Shown: in pieces, positions 2,737 to 10,853 of the stretch | Layout: every line of letters starts with the position of its first letter | How positions within the stretch are numbered: the first letter of the stretch is position 1 | Source of the DNA: Candidatus Petromonas tenebris | GTDB lineage: Bacteria; Bacillota; Clostridia; Peptostreptococcales; Caminicellaceae | DNA length: 64,000 nucleotides | Reading direction: 5' to 3' | NCBI GenBank assembly: GCA_014236755.1 | Contig: JACCKY010000024.1 | Span: forward strand, 1 to 64,000 | The notes under the pieces: model-generated | Database searches by the model: none | What the model was told of the DNA's origin: nothing | What the model saw: only the letters and a program-made list of their open reading frames with translations | Position numbers and translations under genes: made by a program

Positions 2737-3057
2737 AGATAAATTTTCACAACTTACTTATTAATAAAGACATGTAAAAAGGTATTGTCAAAAGAATTAT
2801 GAAAATAATATTCTGAAAACTTATCATTTCTGCCTGCAAATAAGAATTATAATTTACTTATAAAATCTTTGTAAAGGTTGAAATAAAAAGGCTTTCAGCC
2901 TGATCTTGACAAAGATTTTAACGTAAATATTTGGCTAACTAACAGGCAGAAAGGGATGGATTAAGGGGGTGAACTCTAAACCCTTGCAAATACTAAGTTT
3001 GCAGGTATTTTAAGCAAAAATCTTTGACAATACTTGTAAAAATATGGAGGTGAAGAT
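2737..3057. repeat. Nested inverted-repeat element between citC and citD
   Basis: This gap holds no gene. An outer pair, GTATTGTCAAA at about 2782-2792 and TTTGACAATAC at about 3023-3033, encloses an imperfect palindrome at 2827-2953. That palindrome is TTTCTGCCTG (2828-2837), ATTTAC and AAAATCTTTGT (2863-2873) on the left, mirrored by ACAAAGATTTT, GTAAAT and CAGGCAGAAA (2943-2952) on the right. A small AGGCT-TTC-AGCCT hairpin sits in the middle (2889-2901), and TGCAAA/TTTGCA forms another hairpin near 3000. It could be a MITE-like insertion or a structured RNA in the operon. A good ribosome binding site for citD (GGAGGTGA) follows. Confidence 0.7.
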
Positions 3058-3342
3058 ATGGAAATAAAAGCCGTTGGGATGGCAGGAACCTTTGAGTCCA
3101 GTGACATTTCTATTGTTATTGAGCCAAGTGACTCCGATGAAATAAAGATTCATTTAAAAAGTTCCGTTGAAAAACAATTTGGAAAACAAATTAGAAAGGT
3201 TATTGTTGATACTCTTACAGAGCTGGGAGTTGGGAAAGCGGTCGTTCGTGCAACTGACAAAGGTGCTTTGGATTGTGTTATAAGGGCTAGAGTACAGGCC
3301 GCAGCTTACAGGGCAGCTCAGATAAAAGAATATAAATGGTAG
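3058..3342 (+). CDS. citD: Citrate lyase acyl carrier protein, gamma subunit CitD
   Basis: CitD carries the phosphoribosyl-dephospho-CoA arm that shuttles acetyl and citryl groups between CitF and CitE. It has 94 residues, the usual size. The conserved attachment serine is in GTFESSDISI, Ser14 by count. Its start at 3058 follows a strong TATGGAGGTGAAGAT site. The end of citD nearly touches citE (spacing 11 nt to the preferred citE start), so the two are translated from one message. Confidence 0.95.
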   Translation: MEIKAVGMAGTFESSDISIVIEPSDSDEIKIHLKSSVEKQFGKQIRKVIVDTLTELGVGKAVVRATDKGALDCVIRARVQAAAYRAAQIKEYKW

Positions 3343-10607: not shown

Positions 10608-10639
10608 TATTAGCAAATTAAGCGAATTATACAAATACT

Positions 10640-10853
10640 ATGAAGGAGAATAGTAGAAAAGTAACGTTTTACAGAGAGTAAAGCATTGGTGAGAGCTTTA
10701 CAAACTAGCTTTTCGAACCCGCTCTGGAGTATGATGGTGAATATAAACCATTACGGGTTAGTCACGTTAAGACTAAAACAAGTGAGCCTTTTGGCTAATT
10801 TGGGTGGTACCGCGGGTAAACTCTCGTCCCTTACTGGGATGAGAGTTTTTGTT
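10640..10853 (+). promoter_or_regulatory. T-box leader, probable proline specifier
   Basis: The leader carries the T-box sequence GGGTGGTACCGCGG at 10802-10815 and Stem I features: an AGAGAGTA-type purine motif near 10673 and GGTGAGAG near 10688. A specifier region TTCGAACCCGCTC near 10711-10724 follows, in which CCC at 10718-10720 is a proline codon. A terminator, ACTCTCGTCCC-TTACT-GGGATGAGAGTTTTT, follows at about 10820-10850. Uncharged tRNA-Pro would favour the antiterminator and switch on proA-proB. The specifier frame is my reading; ACC (Thr) or AAC (Asn) are the alternatives, and the downstream genes argue for Pro. Confidence 0.88.

Follow-up and report, generated by a model that had tools for sequence, protein, structure and literature searches.

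Between citC and citD in the citrate lyase operon of Candidatus Petromonas tenebris lies a large nested inverted repeat. The first-pass annotation left two readings open: a miniature mobile element, or a regulatory RNA controlling citDEFX. We asked which of these it is and what placed it just ahead of citD. The window, to which all positions refer, is the whole 64,000-nt stretch of DNA that was analyzed. We find that the repeat is a new MITE, probably of an uncharacterized IS6-like clade. Its likely source is an insertion sequence (IS) of the long, zinc-finger IS6-like type, and it was probably inserted by a transposase that prefers sites upstream of ribosome-binding sites (RBSs).

A 254-bp element lies between citC and citD

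The limits proposed in that annotation, 2772-3042, correspond almost exactly to a 254-bp element together with the two copies of a perfect 8-bp target duplication (TSD) that abut it on either side, and every repeat pair named there was found at its coordinates. The features of the locus are as follows.

1690-2736, + strand: citC, the upstream neighbor
2773-2780, + strand: left TSD copy TGTAAAAA, an exact repeat directly abutting the element terminus
2781-3034, + strand: the MITE, 254 bp, defined by copies in its own genome and in G014 and by terminal inverted repeats (TIRs) with a TSD
2781-2794, + strand: left TIR GGTATTGTCAAAAG, a 14/14 match to a Geobacillus IS end (locus L319)
2782-2792 with 3023-3033: outer repeat pair, GTATTGTCAAA with TTTGACAATAC
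2827-2836, + strand: 5′ arm of the middle stem, TTTCTGCCTG, from the fold
2862-2872 with 2909-2919: inner repeat pair, AAAATCTTTGT with ACAAAGATTTT
2862-2919, + strand: conserved core hairpin (model R1), from covariation
2879-2887, + strand: one-sided 9-nt bulge TGAAATAAA, consensus TRAAATGAA, from an alignment of 27 hairpins
2888-2902, + strand: tip stem-loop of the core hairpin, from the fold and the covariation alignment
2889-2901: innermost inverted repeat, AGGCTTTCAGCCT
2943-2952, + strand: 3′ arm of the middle stem, CAGGCAGAAA, from the fold
2983-3005, + strand: small second hairpin CTTGCAAATACTAAGTTTGCAGG, a terminator-like pattern match with a weak T tail
3021-3034, − strand: right TIR AGTATTGTCAAAGA, the end facing the gene, from the TIR and TSD scan
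3035-3042, + strand: right TSD copy TGTAAAAA, from the same scan
3046-3052, + strand: citD Shine-Dalgarno sequence (SD) GGAGGTG, 11 nt past the element end
3058-3342, + strand: citD (acyl carrier protein of citrate lyase), its start codon lying 23 nt past the element end

The two TIRs match at 11/14 positions, and the right-end sequence AAATCTTTGACAATAC is common to two other repeat copies and to a degenerate family of the same genome (family 2, below). Within 2781-3034 no ORF reaches 80 aa, and there is no transposase gene. Folded as RNA, 2772-3042 has a minimum free energy of −71.4 kcal/mol, while shuffled sequences average −44.3 (z = −6.45) and none of 200 folds as well.

Further copies, and an autonomous IS with matching ends

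Further copies were found both in the same genome and in that of another family of the order (G014). The former carries a second full-length copy (C94, 96% identical) before an NAD-epimerase gene and a partial copy of 124 bp (C64, 90%); the latter carries an 87% copy and a left-truncated 91% copy, 1.3 kb apart. Neither of the outcomes that would have counted against the first-pass annotation, an ordinary fold and a lone copy, was seen. A scan of genome contigs with a motif taken from the element's middle part gave no hits. Adjoining C64 is a decayed remnant of a Mu-type transposase with an ExeA-like ATPase (L021 271-1100), which we considered as a parent and rejected, having found no supporting evidence.

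No TSD was found at C94, at the G014 copies or at L318, one of the autonomous copies described below. Since a single AT-rich TSD could arise by chance with a probability that is not negligible, the TSDs of sister elements matter. A sister MITE of 287-288 bp with related ends is flanked by perfect TSDs at three sites (TAATTTTA, ATCAACAA and AAGATTAT), and two more MITEs, of 246 and 255 bp, have the TSDs GGAAGTGA and (T/C)AACTATG. A TIR and TSD scan of 1.59 Mb of fetched loci returned no element beyond those listed here.

Family 2, a degenerate repeat of about 850 bp in the same genome (C117/C47 joined with C73/C120), shares both ends with the MITE and contains a broken ORF with 43-49% identity to transposases of Geobacillus plasmids. 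On one such plasmid (CP128455, L319 2320-4165), an IS of 1846 bp encodes a 478-aa protein and has the TIRs GGTATTGTCAAAAGTTTA and GGTAGCGTCAAAAGTTTT and the perfect TSD CATAATTA; its left end is identical to the first 14 nt of the MITE. Further autonomous ISs with perfect TSDs are present on plasmids of G. kaustophilus, Pediococcus and L. brevis, and another, with the TSD TTGAAAGT, lies on a Geobacillus contig. No intact autonomous copy was seen in the MITE's own genome in searches with queries other than the full transposase. The parent IS may still mobilize the MITE in trans. In the autonomous ISs at L319 2320-4165 and L318, the region 3′ of the transposase gene holds long, nested inverted repeats, and GGAG motifs resembling the SD target lie inside both ends.

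The transposase scores above the cut-off of the Pfam model DDE_Tnp_IS240 (37-39.5 bits, cut-off 27) and below that of the nearest NCBIfam model, IS6 (76-79 bits, cut-off 125). Residues 117-151 of the L318 protein give a weak zinc-ribbon match (E 0.0033, below cut-off), and no solved structure matches the transposase by sequence. Judged by published descriptions, the parent IS fits the subgroup of long zinc-finger IS6 elements, which Varani et al. 2021 (PMC7986276) name clade i and Harmer and Hall 2019 (PMC6807381) name clade VIII. As described in these papers, members such as ISHahy6, ISHco2 and ISTet2 have a long DDE transposase with an N-terminal extension and a zinc finger, a length of about 1.7-1.8 kb, an 8-bp TSD and GG...TGT...CAAA termini. 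The 8-bp TSD and the GG..TGT..CAAA termini, the latter given as the clade i motif in PMC7986276, are both present in the parent IS. By the same descriptions, the clade's transposases are about 450 aa, compared to 478 aa and 1.85 kb for the parent here. Harmer and Hall proposed removing clade VIII from IS6/IS26 and report having found no experimental data on it (PMC6807381).

Insertions lie at a nearly fixed distance from start codons

We compared the positions of 18 insertions, a set that mixes MITEs, degenerate copies and autonomous ISs: the window element, C94, C115 (before aroD), C73 (dctP), C120, the two in G014, L037, L038, L184, L104, L114 and six autonomous copies (L318, L319, L321, L322, L323 and L324). 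The elements were found by sequence and not by position, so the way in which they were searched for did not create the pattern. TSDs are perfect for ten of these insertions, with one mismatch in L114.

The same end lies just 5′ of an SD in 18/18 insertions. The orientation is likewise identical throughout, judged by the interior for MITEs and, for the ISs, with the 5′ side of the transposase gene towards the downstream gene. In 12/18 insertions the next ATG lies 23 nt from the end that faces the gene; five others have it at 22, 22, 24, 24 and 25 nt, which brings 17/18 within 22-25 nt. The start of the gene at L322 is ambiguous, with an annotated TTG at 18 nt and an ATG at 30 nt; its SD is still 11 nt from the element end. 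Across the set, the SD begins 6-12 nt past the element end, so that start-codon distance varies less than SD position. As background, only 0.33% of strand positions in the window combine an SD match at the right place with a start codon 22-26 nt downstream that opens an ORF of 40 codons or more. The element has an unexpected, strong preference for sites immediately upstream of RBSs. We note that the G014 tandem pair and the family 2 copies may not be independent insertions and that at G014b and L104 the reading frames from the ATG at 22-25 nt are short.

A pattern scan of viral contigs gave 40 matches with GGAGG compared to 32 with the control CCTCC, mostly chance; with a start codon in range, the counts were 11 and 2, and one match had a full TIR and TSD. 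A small control set of only three IS6-like relatives and one Geobacillus homologue gave no clear TSD or SD rule. Two Geobacillus contigs (L335, L361) end with an IS terminus before GGAGGGGAAAATATGAAAGGG, and these are candidate insertions at the rule's distance.

Targeting and selection as sources of the pattern

We infer that targeting by the transposase, and not selection, makes the insertion pattern. A DDE transposase supplied in trans would act on the GGTAKTGTCAA termini, and insertion between citC and citD would duplicate 8 bp. This transposase group would prefer sites just upstream of the RBS, always with the same end towards the gene and the outer edge about 23 nt from the start codon, leaving the gene's own SD in place. 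With a fixed end and offset and the SD kept, the element would become a structured 5′ leader with the translation signals intact.

The best-surviving alternative, though an unlikely one, is that insertion is random and that selection alone yields the SD-proximal, single-orientation pattern, either because expression is kept or because the leader is beneficial. All copies do keep the SD, the internal hairpin covaries and is thus under structural selection, and the −23 position coincides with where an initiating ribosome is expected to have its upstream edge. However, if insertions had only to spare the RBS, any larger distance should be tolerated, and none greater than 30 nt was seen; this favors RBS recognition by the transposase. 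Autonomous IS copies, which face the gene with a different interior, obey the same rule, and so do insertions at very different genes. Selection could still contribute to the pattern.

We more tentatively consider what a targeting transposase would recognize. The IS/MITE group may read the translation initiation region itself and insert with a constant offset and direction relative to it, a proposal that we hold to be possible but rather doubtful. What is read would then be the SD plus the start codon, or some factor bound there while transcription and translation are coupled. As purine-rich SDs are hard to align, recognition of the SD and of the ATG are not separable in this set. If the proposal is correct, this would be a transposon family specialized for 5′ UTRs, adding structured, covarying leaders without loss of translation signals.

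Most small ISs are thought to insert nearly randomly or at simple sequence motifs. If transposase targeting is correct, single-orientation insertion about 23 nt upstream of start codons would represent a new type of target choice. It would spare both coding regions and RBSs, would rewire the 5′ UTRs of genes across Firmicutes and might serve for leader insertion. The rule would also offer a testable handle on the experimentally uncharacterized long zinc-finger IS6-like clade. Keyword searches of the literature, incomplete in coverage, found no report of SD-targeting insertion elements, and the passages on clade i/VIII consulted in PMC7986276 and PMC6807381 do not mention SD-adjacent, fixed-orientation insertion.

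Other identities for the element

That the element is instead a cis-regulatory RNA, such as an attenuator or riboswitch-like leader controlling citDEFX, is the part of the first-pass annotation that fared poorly, and we regard it as very improbable. The strong fold, the covariation of the core and the fixed start-codon distance would all suit such a leader. Against it, the element has TIRs and a TSD, has no Rfam match and occurs before unrelated genes. It is also absent from the citC-citD spacers of relatives in which the two genes are adjacent, which argues that it is not a conserved citD regulator; these spacers are short, about 16-100 nt, and that of G006 holds ATGTAAAAATA, equivalent to the window flanks joined at one TGTAAAAA. 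Predicted pairing of the citD SD is nearly the same with the element as with the joined flanks, so folding does not support translational control through SD masking. Compensatory changes, which that annotation had named as support for a regulatory RNA if found at citD in relatives, were seen in the internal hairpin across unrelated sites and not at citD. We also found no outward sigma-70 promoter from the right end between the element and citD. The mobile-element half of that annotation is borne out by the unrelated-gene copies, the TIRs, the 8-bp TSDs and the autonomous relative with the same termini.

Slightly less probable still is a MITE of an IS256-family transposon. An IS256 element in the same genome does have the left end GGTAGTGTCAT and an 8-bp TSD, but its other end differs and its copy is not beside an SD; the closest match of full termini and the family 2 transposase remnant both point to the IS6-like group. 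An IS110-type guide RNA or IS110 remnant is scarcely credible: the core hairpin is present in both copies of a 1598-bp IS110 element of Litoribacter, but 0/26 IS110 loci from relatives carry it, and IS110 elements are not known to have TIRs of this kind or 8-bp TSDs.

The core hairpin of the MITE

The core hairpin is present in every TIR-bearing MITE type found. Its R1 covariance model detects it in 25/394 genomes of the order, and a pattern scan of public genomes found it at more than 119 places, many downstream of aadE on plasmids. In an alignment of 27 hairpins, 90.1% of cells pair and 18/23 pairs have changed on both sides; the covariation score is 0.521, compared to 0.165 for shuffled alignments and at most 0.143 for slid partners. 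As the alignment was fitted to the model, this score leans towards structure; the shift is nonetheless large. The one-sided 9-nt bulge, of the TRAAATGAA type, is nearly invariant.

An R1 search of the autonomous ISs did not find the hairpin, so its link to transposition is only putative. With the MITE always sense to the gene, a role at the RNA level, in processing or anti-polarity for instance, is plausible. We rejected a riboswitch or other known RNA, as Rfam gave no relevant match even at E up to 1, and a literature search for the motif returned nothing relevant.

No TIR or TSD was found around hairpins outside the MITEs. On numerous plasmids and contigs of gut Firmicutes the hairpin lies downstream of the aminoglycoside resistance gene aadE (L193, L195, L196 and L197 at about 4001; L071-L189); these copies are nearly identical even between phyla and have no TIRs or TSDs. 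Sense core hairpins also lie just 3′ of genes at L047, L048, L050, L046, L058, L070 and L054, three of them after a CCA tRNA nucleotidyltransferase gene and some with terminator-like T runs. Another (L006 1470-1690), with compensatory tip changes, lies between genes for a phage-type replication initiator and a tyrosine recombinase. In Litoribacter populi (Bacteroidota), the hairpin is in the right end of the two-copy IS110-family element (L125 3662-3720, L134 3914-3951). This covarying hairpin with its nearly invariant bulge, also carried by resistance plasmids, is a separate, unclassified structural motif.

Comparison with other small elements

Among other mobile elements, group IIC introns and ISs targeting attC or REP hairpins also home to a functional signal that recurs and not to a unique gene. 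Their targets are terminators or repeat hairpins, whereas here an RBS is combined with a DDE transposase. We know of no fixed start-codon distance described for Correia, BOX or RUP elements, which differ from the MITE in termini and hosts. They resemble it in being small, strongly structured repeats dispersed between genes, and Correia elements are RNase III targets (PMC3049150). Two IS6-family MITEs, of 227 and 336 bp, cited in PMC7986276, likewise have both IS ends, no ORF and a similar size. Compared to these, as they are described there, the element here has a covarying conserved hairpin and sits at SDs.

Other features of the window

Elsewhere in the window, a T-box leader (10631-10834, 133.8 bits) lies upstream of a proA-like gene. 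Three unrelated repeat families, 86-97% identical, are present at 120-246/30574-30700, 30710-30828/44015-44133 and 14246-14426/53530-53712.
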